A stretch of 64,000 nucleotides of DNA from Ectothiorhodospira shaposhnikovii (GTDB lineage Bacteria > Pseudomonadota > Gammaproteobacteria > Ectothiorhodospirales > Ectothiorhodospiraceae). Shown piece after piece: positions 29,364-35,086 of the stretch (positions within the stretch are counted from its first letter, which is position 1; each line of letters starts with the position of its first letter). Made by a program: the position numbers and the translations under genes. Under the pieces are notes generated by a model. The model saw only the letters and a program-made list of their open reading frames with translations, ran no database searches and was not told the origin of the DNA. The stretch is from the NCBI RefSeq assembly GCF_022227765.1, contig NZ_JAJMLZ010000005.1, forward strand, positions 124,001 through 188,000, written 5' to 3'.

Positions 29364-29392
29364 CGTCATGCCCCCGTCAAGGGGGCATGACG
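29364..29392. repeat. Perfect 12-bp hairpin after argH
   Basis: CGTCATGCCCCC (29364-29375) and GGGGGCATGACG (29381-29392) pair perfectly around a 5-base loop. No T-run follows, so it may be a Rho-assisted or weak terminator for argH, or a structured site related to the neighbouring palindrome, which repeats CATGACGC. Confidence 0.6.
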
Positions 29393-29409: not shown

Positions 29410-29510
29410 TATCGGTTGCCTGTGCTATTTTGAGCTTATAGCCATAGGTTAAAAAGGTATTGAAGCAGGCCGTCCGTGCCGGTTTCAAGAAGGATAATTA
29501 GGAGGATGAG

Positions 29511-29891
29511 ATGGCGCCCCAATCCGTACTGGTGGTGGACGATGAACCCAATATCGTCCTCTCATTGGAATTCCTGATGAAGGAAGCCGGTTTCGACGTG
29601 CGCGTCGCCCGTGACGGCGAAAGCGCGCTGGAAGCCGTGCGCCAGGCCCCCCCCCATGTGATCCTGCTGGACGTCATGCTGCCCAAGCGGGACGGTTATG
29701 ATGTCTGCCAGACCATCCGCGCCAATCCGGCGTGGAAGGATGTCCGTATCCTGATGCTCACCGCCAAGGGGCGGCAGATCGAGAAGGAAAAGGGCCTGGC
29801 CATGGGGGCGGACGACTACATCACCAAGCCCTTTTCCACCCGTGAGGTGGTGGAGCGGGTGCGTGCCTACATGCCGGACGCCGAAAGCTAG
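29511..29891 (+). CDS. Single-domain response regulator (CheY-like)
   Basis: 126 residues, receiver domain only. Acidic pocket VDDE, phospho-acceptor D54 (ILLDVMLPKRDG), Thr in MLTAKG and Lys in ITKPF are all present; no output domain. It has a strong ribosome binding site (AGGAGGAT, 29500-29507). It is followed after 11 bases by the PAS/exonuclease gene and is the probable phosphate acceptor for the kinase three genes downstream. CbrA-type systems normally use the NtrC-like CbrB instead. Confidence 0.93.
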   Translation: MAPQSVLVVDDEPNIVLSLEFLMKEAGFDVRVARDGESALEAVRQAPPHVILLDVMLPKRDGYDVCQTIRANPAWKDVRILMLTAKGRQIEKEKGLAMGADDYITKPFSTREVVERVRAYMPDAES

Positions 29892-29902
29892 GCCGCCTTT
29901 CC

Positions 29903-32044
29903 GTGGACAAGCGCACACTGGTTGCTTTGCTCCTCTGGTCCCAGGTCTTCTTTGCCTACCTGGGCATGGTGGTGGTGGCCAATTTCGATGCCCTGAGTCG
30001 GGGTGAGTTGCCGACCCAACTGTTCGGTGTGCCGCTGCTGGCGGCGCTGGCCTTTGCCTTCCCTGTCTACCTGACCTGGTTTGCCCTGCGACGTCTGGTG
30101 TTCCGTCCGGCGCGGGTGCTGAGCCGGGATGTCCGCGCCCTGCTGGAATCCCGTTCCGCCGATGCCGAGATCAGCCTGCCTGCCCGTCATGCCATGGGCA
30201 GCCTGCCGGACAGCGTGGGCGCCATGGCGGTGGCCCTGCGTGCCTCCCGCCGCGAGATCCGCAGCGCCATGGCCTCCGCCACGGCACAGATCAATGAGCA
30301 GAAGACCTGGCTGGAGGTCATTCTTCAGGGCCTCACGGAAGGGGTACTGGTGTGCAACCGCAATCACCAGATGCTGCTCTACAACCAGTCCGCCGTCACC
30401 ATTCTCAACGAACCTGAGCGAGTCGGCCTGGGACGGCCCCTGTTCGATGTGATTTCGAAGGCACCGGTGATGCATACCCTGGACCGCCTGGAATGGCGTC
30501 GCTGCACCCGGGGCGAGTCCCAGGCGGAGCTGTCCGAATCCTTCGTCTGCACCAATGCCGAGTCCACCCGCATCCTGCAGGGGCGCATGGCCCTGATCCT
30601 GGATCCGCGGGGGGAGACCAGCGCCTATCTGATCACCCTGGTGGACATCTCCGCCGACGTGGAGACCCTGACCCACGTGGATGCCATCCGCCGTGCCCTG
30701 ACCATGGAGCTGCGTGGTGCCGTGGGCAACCTGCGGGCGGCGGCCGAGACCGTCGATGCCCATCCGGAGATGGCCACCGAGGTCCGGCGCCGGTTCGAGC
30801 ATGTGATGCGCACCGAAAGCGAGCAACTCAGCCGGCGCCTGGAAGAGCTGGCCGCCATCTTCCGGGGCCATGCCCTGGGCCGCTGGCCCATGTCCGACAT
30901 CTTCAGTTCCGACCTGATCAGCTGCGTGGCCCGACGTCTGGAGGATCTGCCGAATCTGCGCCTGGTGCCCGTGGGCCAGCCCCTGTGGGTGCAGGGTGAC
31001 AGTCTTTCCCTGGTGCGGGTGCTGGAGTGCCTGCTGCGGGAATTGCACGCCTTTTCCGGTGCCGATACCTTCCATGTGGAAACCCTGCTCGGGGATCGAC
31101 GCATCTATCTGGATCTTTCCTGGAAAGGACAGGTGGTGCCGGCCAAGCAGCTGGACCAGTGGCTGGACATCTCCTGCGGCGAGGAGCTGGGCCACCGTAC
31201 CGTGCGCGACGTACTGGACCGTCACGGCATCGAATTGTGGAGCCAGCAGGCGGGGCTGCCCGGCGAGGCCCTGCTGCGACTGCCCCTGATCGTGCCCAAG
31301 CGGCCTCAGTTCCTGCCCGAGGGCGAGCGCCTGCCGCCACGGCCCGAATTCTACGATTTCGGCATCATGCGCGAGCACGAAGGCACCCCGGAGCTGGCCG
31401 ATGTCCTGCTGGAGGATCTGACCTTCGTGGTCTTCGACTGCGAGATGACCGGTCTGGACCCGGTGGGAGGCGATGAGATCATTTCCATCGCCGGCGTGCG
31501 CGTGGTCAAGGGTCGGGTGCTCACCGGCGAGACCTTCGAGCGCCTGATCAACCCAGGCTTTTCCATTCCGGCCGCATCCATCCGCTTCCACGGCATCACC
31601 GATGACCAGGTGCGGGACAAGCCGCCCGTCACCGAAGTACTGCCCCTGTTCAAGGCCTTCGTGGGCGATGCGGTGATGGTGGCCCACAATGCGGCCTTCG
31701 ACATGAAGTTCATCAGCATGAAGGAAACCCAGTGCGGGATCAGCTTCCCCAATCCAGTGCTGGATACCCTGCTGCTGTCGGTGATGGTGGAGGACGAGGA
31801 GGAAGATCACTCCCTGGATGCCCTGCTGGAGCGCTACGGCATCCAGATCTCGGGGCGTCATACCGCCCTGGGGGATGCCGTCGCCACCGCGGAGCTGCTG
31901 GTGCGTCTGATCGAGCGTCTGCAGGCACAGGGATTCAAGACCTTCGGCGAGGTCATGCGCTCTTCCAACATGGCGGCCCAGTTGCGTCAGCGTGAACATA
32001 CCCTGACCCATCAGGGCGGGAACGGGTCGGCCGTGGGGGCGTGA
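29903..32044 (+). CDS. Membrane PAS / degenerate histidine kinase / DEDDh 3'-5' exonuclease fusion
   Basis: 713 residues. Two TM helices (about 8-26 and 42-62), a PAS-like domain (about 130-245), then a kinase-like region. At the H-box the protein reads MELRGAV (268-274) where kinases have HELRTPL, so the phospho-acceptor is Met. The N-box reads VLECLLREL (373-381) with both Asn lost, and the G-box is eroded to EELGHRTV. The C-terminal third (about 505-690) is an intact DEDDh nuclease of the DnaQ/PolC type: D512 and E514 (FDCEMTG), D600 (HNAAFD), H653 and D658 (HTALGD). The substrate is unknown (DNA or RNA ends). The order suggests a kinase that lost catalysis and gained a nuclease output. 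Co-transcribed with a receiver, a small membrane protein and a transporter-kinase. Confidence 0.9.
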   Translation: MDKRTLVALLLWSQVFFAYLGMVVVANFDALSRGELPTQLFGVPLLAALAFAFPVYLTWFALRRLVFRPARVLSRDVRALLESRSADAEISLPARHAMGSLPDSVGAMAVALRASRREIRSAMASATAQINEQKTWLEVILQGLTEGVLVCNRNHQMLLYNQSAVTILNEPERVGLGRPLFDVISKAPVMHTLDRLEWRRCTRGESQAELSESFVCTNAESTRILQGRMALILDPRGETSAYLITLVDISADVETLTHVDAIRRALTMELRGAVGNLRAAAETVDAHPEMATEVRRRFEHVMRTESEQLSRRLEELAAIFRGHALGRWPMSDIFSSDLISCVARRLEDLPNLRLVPVGQPLWVQGDSLSLVRVLECLLRELHAFSGADTFHVETLLGDRRIYLDLSWKGQVVPAKQLDQWLDISCGEELGHRTVRDVLDRHGIELWSQQAGLPGEALLRLPLIVPKRPQFLPEGERLPPRPEFYDFGIMREHEGTPELADVLLEDLTFVVFDCEMTGLDPVGGDEIISIAGVRVVKGRVLTGETFERLINPGFSIPAASIRFHGITDDQVRDKPPVTEVLPLFKAFVGDAVMVAHNAAFDMKFISMKETQCGISFPNPVLDTLLLSVMVEDEEEDHSLDALLERYGIQISGRHTALGDAVATAELLVRLIERLQAQGFKTFGEVMRSSNMAAQLRQREHTLTHQGGNGSAVGA

Positions 32045-32048
32045 CGCC

Positions 32049-32348
32049 ATGAAGCCGTCGCTCCCACCGGAGGATACCCAGGGTGACCGGGGCCTGCGGA
32101 TGGCCCCGCCCAGCGGCGCCCGGGAGCGATACGTGGCAGCTTTCCTGCTGGGGCTGGCCCTGTTCTTTCCCCCCTTGCTGGCGGTGTTCGATGTGCCCGC
32201 CACCTTGCTGGGTATCCCGTTACTGTTCCTGTATCTCTACCTGGCCTGGCTGACCGTGATCCTGGTGGTGTTGCTGATCGTGGTCCGCAACCCCGGCGGG
32301 GACGGGCCGGATGACCCGGTCACGGGACGGGAGGAGGAGCACCGGTGA
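32049..32348 (+). CDS. Small two-TM membrane protein upstream of a CbrA-like kinase
   Basis: 99 residues. Two hydrophobic helices (about 29-47 and 51-79, with PPLLAVFDVPATLLGIPLLFLYLY between), then a charged C-terminus. It resembles the small subunits that accompany SSS-family symporters and occupies the place of CbrX ahead of cbrA in Pseudomonas. Its stop overlaps the GTG of the next gene (GTGA), so translation of the kinase may depend on it. Confidence 0.82.
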   Translation: MKPSLPPEDTQGDRGLRMAPPSGARERYVAAFLLGLALFFPPLLAVFDVPATLLGIPLLFLYLYLAWLTVILVVLLIVVRNPGGDGPDDPVTGREEEHR

Positions 32349-35086
32349 ACATGGGCCTGGTCATCGGCGTCTCCCTGGGCTATCTGCTGATCCTGTTCGG
32401 CATTGCCTACTGGGGGGACCGCCGGGCGGACCAGGGCCGCAGCGTCATCAACAACCCCTATGTCTACGCCCTGTCCATCGCGGTGTACTGCACCTCATGG
32501 ACCTTCTACGGCAGCGTGGGCCTGGCGGCCCAGGGGGGCATCCACTATCTGCCCATCTATCTGGGGCCCACCCTCATGGCGGCGGTCTGGTGGATCGTGC
32601 TGCGCAAGATGGTGCGTATCTCCAAGGTCAATCGCATCACGTCCATCGCGGATTTCGTGGCCTCCCGCTACGGCAAGAGCCCCCTGTTGGGTGGGCTGGT
32701 CACCGTCATCGCCCTGGTGGGGCTGATTCCCTACATCGCCTTGCAACTCAAGGCGGTTTCCGACACCTTCACCGTGATGGTCATGTATCCCGAGGTGACG
32801 GCCCAGGATCTGATGCACAGTGTGCCGTTCTACATGGATACCGCCTTCTATGTGGCGCTGATCCTGGCCCTGTTCGCCATCCTCTTCGGTACCCGTCACA
32901 TCGATACCGCCGAACATCACCAGGGCATGGTGGCGGCCATCGCGTTCGAGTCCATCGTCAAGCTGGTGGCCTTCCTGGCCGCCGGCCTCATGATCACCTT
33001 CGTGATCTTCGGGGGGCCGGCGGACCTGTTCGACCAGGCGGCCCGGCACCCGGATCTGGCCGAGCTGTTCCGGGTCGGGGAACTGGCGGACTACGGTAAT
33101 TGGGTGGCCCTGATCCTCCTGTCCATGGTAGTGATCCTGGTCCTGCCGCGGCAGTTCCAGGTGGCGGTGGTGGAGAACGTGGACGAGCGTCACGTGAGCA
33201 AGGCCGCCTGGCTGTTCCCCCTGTATCTGTTCCTGATCAACCTGTTCGTGCTGCCCATCGCCTTTGCCGGGGTGCTGATGTTCGGCCATGGGGAGATCCA
33301 CCCGGACAGTTTCGTTCTGGCCCTGCCCCTGTCCCAGGACCTGCAGTGGCTGGCGCTGATGGTCTTTCTGGGCGGGCTGTCCGCCGCCACGGCCATGATC
33401 ATCGTCGAAACCGTGGCCTTGGCCACCATGCTCTGCAACGATCTGGTGATGCCGGTATTGCTGCGCATCCGCTGGCTGCGGTTGCAGCAGCGCAAGGACC
33501 TCACCCGCCTGCTGCTGCACCTGCGGCGCTGGGGCATCCTGCTGGGCTACGGCTATGTCAGGATCACCGGAGACATGGTGGCCCTGGTGGGGATGGGGCT
33601 GGTGTCCTTCTGCGCCGTGGCCCAGTTCGCACCGGCCCTCATCGGCGGAATCTTCTGGAAGGGTGCCACCCAGAAGGGGGCGTTGGCAGGTCTGGCGGCG
33701 GGATTTGCCGTCTGGCTCTATACCCTGTTGCTGCCGGCCTTTGCCCAGTCGGGCTGGCTGTCCATGGGTTTTGTCGAACAGGGGCTGATGGGGATCGCCC
33801 TGTTCAAGCCCTATGCCCTGTTCGGGCTGGAGGGGCTGGACCCGATCACCCATTCCCTGATCTGGTCCATGCTGGTGAACGTGGGGGCTTATGTGACCGT
33901 CTCCCTGCTCACCCGTCAGAGCACCATGGAACGTATCCAGGCCAACCTGTTCGTGGATGTGTTCCGGCTCTCCGCCGATCGCTACGGCAGCTCCCGATTC
34001 TGGCGCGGTACCGCCACCGTGCGCGATCTGCTGGACCTGCTCAAGCGGTTCGTCGGGGAGGAGCGGGCAGTACGGGCTTTTCATCAGTATGCCCGTGCCC
34101 GTGGACTGGACTTTCGCCGCATGCGCGAGGCGGACGGCGAGCTGATCCTCATGTGCGAGCGCCTGTTGGCCGGTTCCATCGGCACCGCCTCGGCCCGGGT
34201 CATGGTTTCCAATGTGGCCAAGGGGGACGTGGTCAGCCTGGAGGAAGTGATGGAAATCCTCGACGAGGCCAGCCAGGTGATCACCTACAGCCAGCAACTG
34301 GAGGCCAAGTCCCGGGAGCTGGAGGCGGCCACCGCCGAACTGCGGGCCGCCAATGCCCAGTTGCAGCAGCTGGACCGCATGAAGGATGACTTCATCTCCA
34401 CCGTCACCCACGAACTGCGTACCCCGCTGACCTCCATCCGCTCCTTCACCGAGATCCTGCATGATCATCCGGATCTGGAGACGGCAAAGCGCCAGGAGTT
34501 TCTGGGCATCATCATCAGCGAAAGCGAGCGTCTGACCCGGCTGATCAACCAGGTGCTGGACCTGGCCAAGCTGGAGTCCGGAGCCATGCGCTGGTACATC
34601 CGCCGGCTGGATCTGGTGGAGATCCTGACCGAAGCCGCCACCACCACGGGCCAGCTGTTCCGGGACAAGGGGGTGGACCTGGCCCTGGAACTGCCGGAAC
34701 AGCCGGTCTGGCTGCCCACGGATCGGGACCGGCTGATGCAGGTGGTCATCAACCTGCTCTCCAATGCGGTGAAATTCACGCCACCGCAAACCGGACGGGT
34801 GGTGCTGCGCCTGCGCCCGGCCCGGGACGGGGGGGTGCGGGTGGAGGTGGAGGACAATGGCCCGGGGATCCCGGCGGAGGCCCTGCCCACCCTGTTCGAG
34901 AAGTTCCGTCAGGTGGGCGATGCCCTCACCGACAAGCCGGAGGGCACCGGCCTGGGTCTGGCCATCTGCAAGAACATCGTGCAGCGACTGGGGGGGCGGA
35001 TCTGGGTGGAGACCGAGCCCGATCAGGGCAGCCGTTTCATTTTTACCCTGCCGGTGCCCCGGTCCCCCGAGGCGAACGATGACTGA
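32345..35086 (+). CDS. Sodium/solute symporter-histidine kinase (CbrA-like)
   Basis: 913 residues. The first ~525 are a 13-TM-like SSS (SLC5) transporter domain; next a STAC-like segment (about 545-615, FWRGTATVRDLLDLLKRF); then a coiled coil (648-680); then HisKA with H689 (THELRTPLTSI); then HATPase with N803/N807, DNGPGI and GTGLGL (867-872). All kinase motifs are intact. No PAS domain is visible between STAC and HisKA, where CbrA has one; a PAS domain is instead in the exonuclease protein of this operon. GTG start at 32345 overlaps the small membrane gene; ATG at 32351 is an alternative. It probably couples solute uptake or sensing to phosphorylation of the lone receiver. Confidence 0.92.
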   Translation: MNMGLVIGVSLGYLLILFGIAYWGDRRADQGRSVINNPYVYALSIAVYCTSWTFYGSVGLAAQGGIHYLPIYLGPTLMAAVWWIVLRKMVRISKVNRITSIADFVASRYGKSPLLGGLVTVIALVGLIPYIALQLKAVSDTFTVMVMYPEVTAQDLMHSVPFYMDTAFYVALILALFAILFGTRHIDTAEHHQGMVAAIAFESIVKLVAFLAAGLMITFVIFGGPADLFDQAARHPDLAELFRVGELADYGNWVALILLSMVVILVLPRQFQVAVVENVDERHVSKAAWLFPLYLFLINLFVLPIAFAGVLMFGHGEIHPDSFVLALPLSQDLQWLALMVFLGGLSAATAMIIVETVALATMLCNDLVMPVLLRIRWLRLQQRKDLTRLLLHLRRWGILLGYGYVRITGDMVALVGMGLVSFCAVAQFAPALIGGIFWKGATQKGALAGLAAGFAVWLYTLLLPAFAQSGWLSMGFVEQGLMGIALFKPYALFGLEGLDPITHSLIWSMLVNVGAYVTVSLLTRQSTMERIQANLFVDVFRLSADRYGSSRFWRGTATVRDLLDLLKRFVGEERAVRAFHQYARARGLDFRRMREADGELILMCERLLAGSIGTASARVMVSNVAKGDVVSLEEVMEILDEASQVITYSQQLEAKSRELEAATAELRAANAQLQQLDRMKDDFISTVTHELRTPLTSIRSFTEILHDHPDLETAKRQEFLGIIISESERLTRLINQVLDLAKLESGAMRWYIRRLDLVEILTEAATTTGQLFRDKGVDLALELPEQPVWLPTDRDRLMQVVINLLSNAVKFTPPQTGRVVLRLRPARDGGVRVEVEDNGPGIPAEALPTLFEKFRQVGDALTDKPEGTGLGLAICKNIVQRLGGRIWVETEPDQGSRFIFTLPVPRSPEANDD

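Follow-up and report, generated by a model that had tools for sequence, protein, structure and literature searches.

Why should a receiver without any output domain and a transporter-type sensor kinase share an operon with a membrane-anchored exonuclease? The question is raised by a locus of Ectothiorhodospira shaposhnikovii (contig NZ_JAJMLZ010000005.1 of assembly GCF_022227765.1), which we studied within a stretch of 64,000 nucleotides (contig positions 124,001 to 188,000; referred to here as the window, whose own numbering is used throughout). Four open reading frames (ORFs) follow one another on the same strand: a lone receiver (REC) of 126 aa (29511..29891, +); PPX, a protein of 713 aa with a GTG start (29903..32044, +), in which a membrane anchor, a PAS domain, a pseudokinase (DHp plus CA), and a DEDDh exonuclease are joined; SMP, a small two-helix membrane protein of 99 aa, described from an alignment of 20 sequences (32049..32348, +); and SSSHK, an SLC5/STAC histidine kinase of 913 aa, also with a GTG start (32345..35086, +). 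Intergenic gaps of 11 and 4 bases are followed by one overlap of 4 bases. Since the same arrangement is found in dozens of loci, it is not due to chance.

An original prediction, made from the letters of this DNA and a list of its ORFs, had proposed one split sensory machine in which transport or phosphorylation controls a nuclease. The reading we favor, with a probability of roughly one-half, is a two-component system that has an enzyme as its response. SSSHK, probably together with SMP, would sense or carry a small solute, for which a short-chain carboxylic acid is the likely candidate, and would autophosphorylate at H689. The phosphate would then pass from H689 to D54 of the lone receiver, and the phosphorylated receiver would dock onto the pseudo-DHp of PPX, in effect the SSSHK core in a catalytically dead copy; docking and the PAS domain together would switch the membrane-tethered exonuclease. 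What sequences and structure models show is the domain makeup, active sites with their residues intact, a pseudokinase that is dead, the conservation of the genes, and the closeness of the pseudokinase to its partner; from these we infer an origin by copying of that kinase, phosphotransfer, docking, nuclease control, the signal, and a nucleic-acid substrate. For the docking step, a precedent is DivL, whose pseudokinase fold reads phosphorylated DivK (PMC4211667).

A dead kinase core fused to an intact exonuclease

In the window's PPX, Pfam detects only PAS and RNase_T domains, and the pseudokinase goes unseen. Comparison of a profile of PPX residues 240-500 with residues 640-913 of the partner kinase gave a probability of 99.3 and an E value of 1.5e-20. 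An AlphaFold2 model based on 76 sequences (mean predicted local distance difference test score [pLDDT], 89.3; predicted template modeling score [pTM], 0.61) shows an N-terminal pair of helices leading into PAS, then a helical hairpin and an alpha/beta domain, with the exonuclease last. By profile and model, then, the pseudokinase domain is real. The N-terminal helices, residues 3-32 and 42-82 (29909..30148, +), probably span the membrane, judging from the modeled secondary structure and from hydrophobicity assessed by eye. They are followed by the PAS domain, residues 138-249 (30314..30649, +; PF08448/PF00989); by the pseudo-DHp hairpin, residues 250-330 (30650..30892, +; profile comparison and AlphaFold2), in which M268 replaces H689 of the kinase; and by a degenerate CA (ATPase) domain (30893..31312, +) that has lost the N-box Asn and the G1 Asp. 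The exonuclease domain, residues 509-666 (31427..31900, +; PF00929, E 1.3e-38), carries D512, E514, D600, H653, and D658.

These features extend through the family. Across 135 aligned PPX rows (133 distinct), all five DEDDh residues are unchanged in every row; the phospho-histidine position holds His in none, Glu in 82, and Asp in 15, and the equivalents of kinase residues N803 and D837 are retained in 0/135 each. Without duplicate contigs, the same counts are 133/133. Several rows longer than 600 aa lack a recognized DHp, and for those the absence of histidine is uninformative. The leading Foldseek matches to the model are histidine kinases (9a5d, WalK; 4i5s) and the PolC, DinG, and DnaQ exonucleases. 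The exonuclease part superposes well, at about 2-3 Å for most of these; the kinase alignments cover several domains with a large root mean square deviation and therefore support the order of folds rather than their relative placement. The closest solved structures to the exonuclease domain are of the PolC type, and PPX passes the broad NCBIfam exonuclease model TIGR00573 (102.1 bits against a cutoff of 71.5). Among the 25 NCBIfam models listed for each protein, no equivalog reached its cutoff for PPX or for the kinase. From its sequence, PPX is a DEDDh exonuclease with an intact predicted active site.

The dead core is closest to the neighboring kinase. When a pseudokinase profile of 26 PPX sequences was run against the window's own genome at E 0.001, the matches were PPX (258 bits), its partner SSSHK (56.5 bits), and a single further kinase (20.5 bits); a whole-kinase search of this genome gives 34 matches. 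In the phylum sample described below, the adjacent SSSHK was the best match other than PPX in 20/20 genomes with a kinase near PPX, sometimes by a small lead over the next kinase (48.8 versus 37.5 bits in genome G448, 35.5 versus 25.5 in G239, and 37.9 versus 28.1 in G395). The pseudokinase would have arisen by copying of the partner's kinase core. The same closeness, found in 21/21 genomes with our own included, makes compatible dimer faces plausible, as an alternative would have it: the PPX pseudokinase would pair with the DHp of SSSHK, as RetS does with GacS, and the kinase would control the nuclease directly, leaving the receiver to report elsewhere or to act as a phosphate sink. We return to this unlikely arrangement with the co-occurrence data.

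The transporter kinase, its small partner, and the receiver

The kinase core of SSSHK is predicted from its sequence to be active. Its DHp (34379..34582, +; PF00512 HisKA, E 2.4e-20) contains H689 at 34409-34411, and its CA domain (34721..35059, +; PF02518 HATPase_c, E 2.8e-34) contains N803 and the GTGLGL motif (867); H689 and N803 are both kept in 76/76 SSSHK rows. Pfam finds no PAS domain in SSSHK, and the transporter model PF00474 fell short of E 0.1. The SLC5 identity of the transporter part is drawn instead from residues 5-652, which are 41% identical to an SLC5/STAC kinase on Sinorhizobium fredii pNGR234b. Around that kinase, the record, which carries no annotation, has a gene of the DUF3311 family and frames for a permease and a regulator; we take the protein to be RpuS, as these neighbors fit the published RpuS (PMC9100948). 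Between transporter and kinase, the STAC region (residues 559-625; 34019..34219, +) forms four helices (559-570, 572-585, 598-612, and 614-625) in an AlphaFold2 model with a mean pLDDT of 82.1, in keeping with the alignment to the pNGR234b kinase. The 50 listed Foldseek matches to this model are kinase or signaling structures, with no transporter among them.

With a transporter domain, a four-helix STAC domain, and a DHp-CA core, SSSHK can be placed by sequence and model in the SLC5/STAC superfamily. By the features tested, it is not CbrA, CrbS, or RpuS. Orthology with CrbS was set aside, as the same genome holds another SLC5-type kinase (a 1062-aa frame on contig C37), presumably the CrbS-like one. 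In that region (C37 122000-140000, L032), two DUF294 genes and a 440-aa regulator-type frame lie near this second kinase. A further match occurs in Azoarcus sp. KH32C (NC_020548.1, 202164-204038; H26), where a match to kinase residues 5-626 lies under an EAL-domain annotation, perhaps a transporter-EAL fusion.

SMP, with the sequence pattern P..G.P..W in its 20-sequence alignment, is a probable small partner of the transporter kinase. It has no Pfam match, and its 20 relatives gave no confident family. DUF3311 was considered and was confirmed neither by Pfam (best E 0.1, in 2/20 members) nor by hhalign (probability 6%); DUF485 and DUF4212 are absent from the Pfam matches of the 20 relatives.

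The receiver (PF00072, E 2.1e-29) has its phospho-acceptor, D54, at 29670-29672. Among 108 receivers (the window's own and the neighbors', two duplicates included), D54 is conserved in 106, and the C-terminal end lies no more than 21 residues past the F118 position in all 108, with no output domain in any. The original prediction thus described the parts correctly: the ORF coordinates agree with its gaps and overlap, Pfam assigns the receiver to Response_reg only and puts a PAS domain inside the exonuclease protein, profile comparison and the AlphaFold2 model support the pseudokinase there, and alignment and Pfam bear out a PAS-less kinase with intact H689, N803, and GTGLGL.

Spread of the gene set and a fifth member

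To judge how far the four genes travel together, three collections are considered. In 58 genomes, our own included, a kinase search at E 1e-200 found 13 carriers: 10/10 of the genus, 1/27 others of the family (G017), and 2/21 from elsewhere in the class (G050, G051). By these counts, the set is patchy. Seven of the nine other genomes of the genus carry all four genes (L024-L027 and L033-L035), and in G002, PPX, SMP, and the kinase stand in a row, the kinase apparently interrupted by a frame break around its residue 60. In G003, a variant has neither SMP nor a transporter domain, and what follows PPX directly is a 355-aa frame encoding STAC and kinase (L028:4726-5793, -). The order in G017 and G051 is SMP-SSSHK-receiver-PPX.

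Of 397 Pseudomonadota genomes sampled evenly, 53 (our own included) have PPX-type matches at E 1e-45. The 52 other loci were scored for a receiver within 400 bases and a kinase within 4.5 kb, with PPX called full-length at 600 aa or more. The 41 full-length loci have a receiver beside 33, a kinase beside 20, and a DUF294 gene beside 36. Where at least 3.8 kb of sequence flanks PPX on both sides (35 full-length loci), a receiver is present in 28, receiver and kinase in 19, all four genes in 18, and DUF294 in 30. The third collection comprises the best 80 of 534 confirmed matches on named contigs and is for that reason biased toward close relatives; its 55 well-flanked full-length loci have a receiver in 49, receiver and kinase in 34, all four genes in 32, and DUF294 in 36. 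Two contigs belong to both sets (L070 = L136; L083 = L141). The named contigs among these best 80 of 534 include Azospirillum, Motiliproteus, Pseudomonas sp. MMS21 TM103, Azonexus, Azoarcus, Colwellia, and Tepidicella, and two of the records are titled Desulfobacterales and Desulfosarcina; bins labeled Nitrospirota, Acidobacteriota, and Caldilineaceae may be binning errors.

The original prediction had made its coupling idea depend on a neighborhood conserved beyond close relatives. It is so conserved, and well beyond them, in Alpha-, Beta-, and Gammaproteobacteria and in the two Desulfobacterales/Desulfosarcina records, though patchily. The original prediction had also asked whether the exonuclease gene usually stands alone. 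In its full-length form it does not: a receiver, kinase, or DUF294 gene is near it in 33/35 well-flanked loci of the phylum sample and in 51/55 of the named contigs (best 80 of 534). Conversely, a PPX match was found in 26/30 genomes with a kinase match of at least 920 bits (own excluded). Gene order varies (SHRP or RPSH, for SMP, kinase, receiver, and PPX, with D, the DUF294 gene, before or behind), so the genes remain together through rearrangement. Two unusual layouts were also seen: two lone receivers flank SMP-SSSHK-PPX in L129 (5732-6193 and 12220-12594), and L128 (3-11061) has two DUF294-PPX pairs with about 6 kb between the PPX genes and no receiver found.

The DUF294/CBS nucleotidyltransferase is a fifth member of the set that escaped the first reading; in the window's genome, the DUF294 genes are located away from the operon. 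On Paracoccus plasmids, including plasmid 1 of P. denitrificans PD1222, DUF294-SMP-SSSHK-REC-PPX form five adjacent genes on one strand (in PD1222, PDEN_RS25395-RS25415). Domains of one such protein (L219) are CBS, the DUF294 nucleotidyltransferase, and DUF294_C.

Co-occurrence of the pseudo-DHp with the receiver

If the pseudo-DHp serves as a dock for the receiver, the two should tend to be kept or lost together. For this count, 168 loci were used, of which 163 have known surroundings, and a receiver counted if it lay on the strand of the exonuclease domain and no more than 2.3 kb away from it. DHp and receiver occur together in 121 loci and are jointly missing from 27; 12 have the DHp only and 3 the receiver only (119, 27, 12, and 3 of 161 without duplicate contigs). 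The receiver-only loci L219 and L220 are counterexamples to the pairing, and both have an ScfR protein with a DHp by the kinase. An instance of joint loss is G116 (L094), in which the DHp is gone from between PAS and CA and the receiver is gone too; four other members of its genus (L078, L082, L084, and L086) keep both.

Shared ancestry was addressed with an independent-pairs test on a tree of the NT, PAS, and EXO domains, used because a tree of the exonuclease alone is too poorly resolved; on it, the DHp changes 12 times and the receiver 18 times. DHp versus receiver gave 10 pairs, with 7.9 changing in the same direction, 1.3 in opposite directions, and 0.8 showing no difference (median p 0.039; range, 0.039-0.18). 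Started from the receiver side, the test gave 14 pairs (7.5 same, 1.3 opposite, 5.2 undecided; median p 0.070). By this test, the tightest pair is receiver and adjacent kinase, as expected of a cognate pair (13 pairs, 9.0 same, 0 opposite, 4.0 undecided; p 0.004). The receiver-DHp association is thus suggestive and not strong.

The same data bear on direct pairing of PPX with the kinase. Across 9 pairs, DHp and adjacent kinase shifted in the same direction in 4.9, in opposite directions in 0.5, and without difference in 3.5 (median p 0.125), a tendency toward joint change, as a heterodimer would have it. Against this, the DHp is followed more closely by the receiver (121/133 DHp loci) than by the kinase (83/118), and two nearly complete genomes, G108 and G152 (97 and 99%), keep receiver-PPX (L086 and L083) with no kinase match at E 1e-170.

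Docking of the receiver on the pseudo-DHp is the reading we retain, and several observations weigh against it. Twelve loci hold a DHp without a nearby receiver; L109 has a receiver with no recognizable DHp, and no ScfR protein was found there. With the exonuclease-only tree, one usable pair is left, and a first data set, with 4 pairs, gave no significance for joint loss of DHp and receiver. In a profile alignment, the pseudo-DHp and the kinase DHp differ at the residues that would face the receiver (positions we take from HK853). In 16/35 well-flanked full-length loci of the phylum sample, the receiver, the kinase, or both are missing from the vicinity; G050 (L029) has SMP, kinase, and receiver, with no PPX in the stretch read; and exonucleases that lack the DHp are found beside DUF294 alone.

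A possible second effector that carries a similar DHp

Loci L210, L219, and L220 encode ScfR-family proteins with helix-turn-helix (HTH), HisKA, IrrE-like, and ScfRs domains (L210:16481-18076, -; L219:1845-3446, +; L220:1466-3052, +; L230-L232 and others also have such genes). In all, an ScfR-DHp gene lies near SSSHK and a receiver in 17 loci, namely, 13 of 20 kinase neighborhoods read for this purpose and 4 found earlier; an eighteenth candidate frame (L093) proved to be the kinase itself and was dropped. By motif pattern, the DHp histidine is retained in 17/17 of these proteins, and a kinase-DHp profile matches 16/17 at 18 bits or more, the L241 protein giving no match. In G259, G357, and G361, the ScfR-DHp protein occurs with SSSHK and no PPX match; G140 (L233), with SSSHK and no PPX match, has neither effector nearby. 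L125 has both effectors in a single cluster with one kinase and two lone receivers, one beside each effector; in a receiver tree these lean weakly toward sorting by effector, with too few columns to tell. When the L210 ScfR DHp, the sole query in this search, was run against 10 genomes, the top two matches in 10/10 were the ScfR protein of the locus and the SSSHK beside it. In G415, G239, and G417, the ScfR relatives have no counterpart of the DHp stretch.

The alternative effector shares its HTH, IrrE-like, and ScfRs domains with the ScfR regulators PccR and RamB and, unlike them, bears a DHp that resembles that of the neighboring kinase. The targets of PccR and RamB are propionyl-CoA and acetate genes, in keeping with a carboxylate signal.

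The conserved histidine of these proteins (17/17) would suit a relay in which the receiver's phosphate is passed on to another DHp, such as theirs, with PPX as a side branch. We regard this as improbable: PPX has no histidine at this position in its 135 rows, and our own genome has no match to an ScfR-DHp protein at E 1e-20. Docking of the receiver on a copied DHp is the reading that the shared receiver-kinase core leads us to extend, as that core, standing with ScfR-DHp as it does with PPX, suggests a general plug in which the kinase DHp is copied into an effector. In its broadest form, which we offer tentatively and would not yet bet on, a transporter kinase is joined to unlike effectors (the DEDDh exonuclease and ScfR) through its own DHp, copied as a dock for the lone receiver. 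The exonuclease and the DUF294/CBS nucleotidyltransferase might then be an opposed pair acting on one RNA or protein, from which the first would remove nucleotides and to which the second would add them, with the supply of short-chain carboxylates in control.

The exonuclease outside the operon

The nearest studied relative in function is the PP_0354/PP_0353 pair of Pseudomonas putida, where the likeness of PP_0353 is drawn from published description only. PP_0354 (CBS) and PP_0353 (RNase_T) form one operon, whose transcription is governed by the SLC5/STAC system MxtR/ErdR (PMC9927547 and PMC8402216), and PP_0353 is important in pyruvate use (PMC9927547). Both there and here, a CBS protein and an RNase_T exonuclease are tied to an SLC5/STAC kinase. 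The link there is transcriptional, through ErdR, whereas here the exonuclease lies inside the kinase operon beside a lone receiver; PPX has PAS and pseudokinase domains, and the descriptions of PP_0353, as far as accessible, mention neither.

This precedent favors a metabolic neighborhood, in which the genes would be co-transcribed for uptake and use of one carbon source with no control of the exonuclease by the kinase at the protein level. In the phylum sample, the shorter exonucleases agree with this view: DUF294 is beside 11/11 and a receiver or kinase beside none. Five DHp-less loci (L104, L107, L110, L111, and L118) agree with it too, each adjoined by a gene for a putative ActP-like symporter, judged by eye. 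Left unexplained are the dead copy of the partner kinase in the exonuclease and the adjoining lone receiver without output domain, and we find this explanation about as doubtful as the heterodimer. The persistence of DHp-less exonucleases beside DUF294 does imply that the enzyme has a role without kinase-receiver control. With receiver and kinase together near only 19/35 and 34/55 well-flanked full-length genes, and with DHp-less exonucleases beside DUF294 alone, the single split machine of the original prediction is supported in part: it holds where the pseudokinase is present and does not extend to the whole exonuclease family. In the five loci just named, symporter, DUF294, a membrane protein of about 175 aa, and a receiver-less exonuclease form a row; the membrane protein of L107 matched no Pfam family.

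Comparison with known systems

SSSHK has the SLC5 transporter domain, STAC linker, and DHp-CA kinase of CbrA, CrbS (MxtR), and RpuS and differs from them in having no PAS domain or fused receiver and in an operon that includes an exonuclease. In CbrA/CbrB, a PAS domain is part of CbrA and a sigma-54-interacting domain part of CbrB, and Pfam found neither here in the corresponding proteins. The partner in CrbS/CrbR and RpuS/RpuR is a LuxR-type regulator, in contrast to the short receivers of this family. CbrB, CrbR, and RpuR all possess output domains (for RpuR, PMC9100948).

Like DivL-DivK of Caulobacter, the operon combines a PAS-bearing protein of dead DHp-CA type with a single-domain receiver. 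DivL acts on the CckA pathway, whereas the dead kinase of PPX shares its chain with an exonuclease and has its closest match in the partner transporter kinase. By analogy, the operon may work like DivL-DivK, but it is not that system. The catalytic domain of PPX resembles the PolC exonuclease of Thermotoga maritima (2p1j, E 5.6e-29) and Escherichia coli epsilon (1j53, E 8e-16); PPX joins this domain to a membrane anchor, PAS, and a pseudokinase rather than to a polymerase. We found no description of the operon, the pseudokinase-exonuclease fusion, or the ScfR-DHp proteins in the open literature; papers under subscription may mention them.

Flanking features

A GC-rich, terminator-like hairpin read by eye lies between argH and the receiver gene (29370..29386, no strand assigned), and AGGAGG, which resembles a ribosome-binding site, precedes the receiver start (29500..29505, +; by eye). 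The first ORF downstream of SSSHK is on the opposite strand, and no tRNA genes were found within the window. An anti-phage defense system was rejected: PADLOC matched PPX only with models of exonuclease parts and the receiver with three weak ones, and SMP and the kinase had none.

Meaning of the operon

If the receiver does dock on PPX, this would be a two-component system whose direct, posttranscriptional response is a nuclease, and a kinase would gain new outputs when its own receiver-docking domain is copied and fused to an effector. Such a scheme might also help to explain the role of the PP_0353 exonuclease in pyruvate use. With the five-gene set present in Paracoccus denitrificans PD1222, the system is directly testable.

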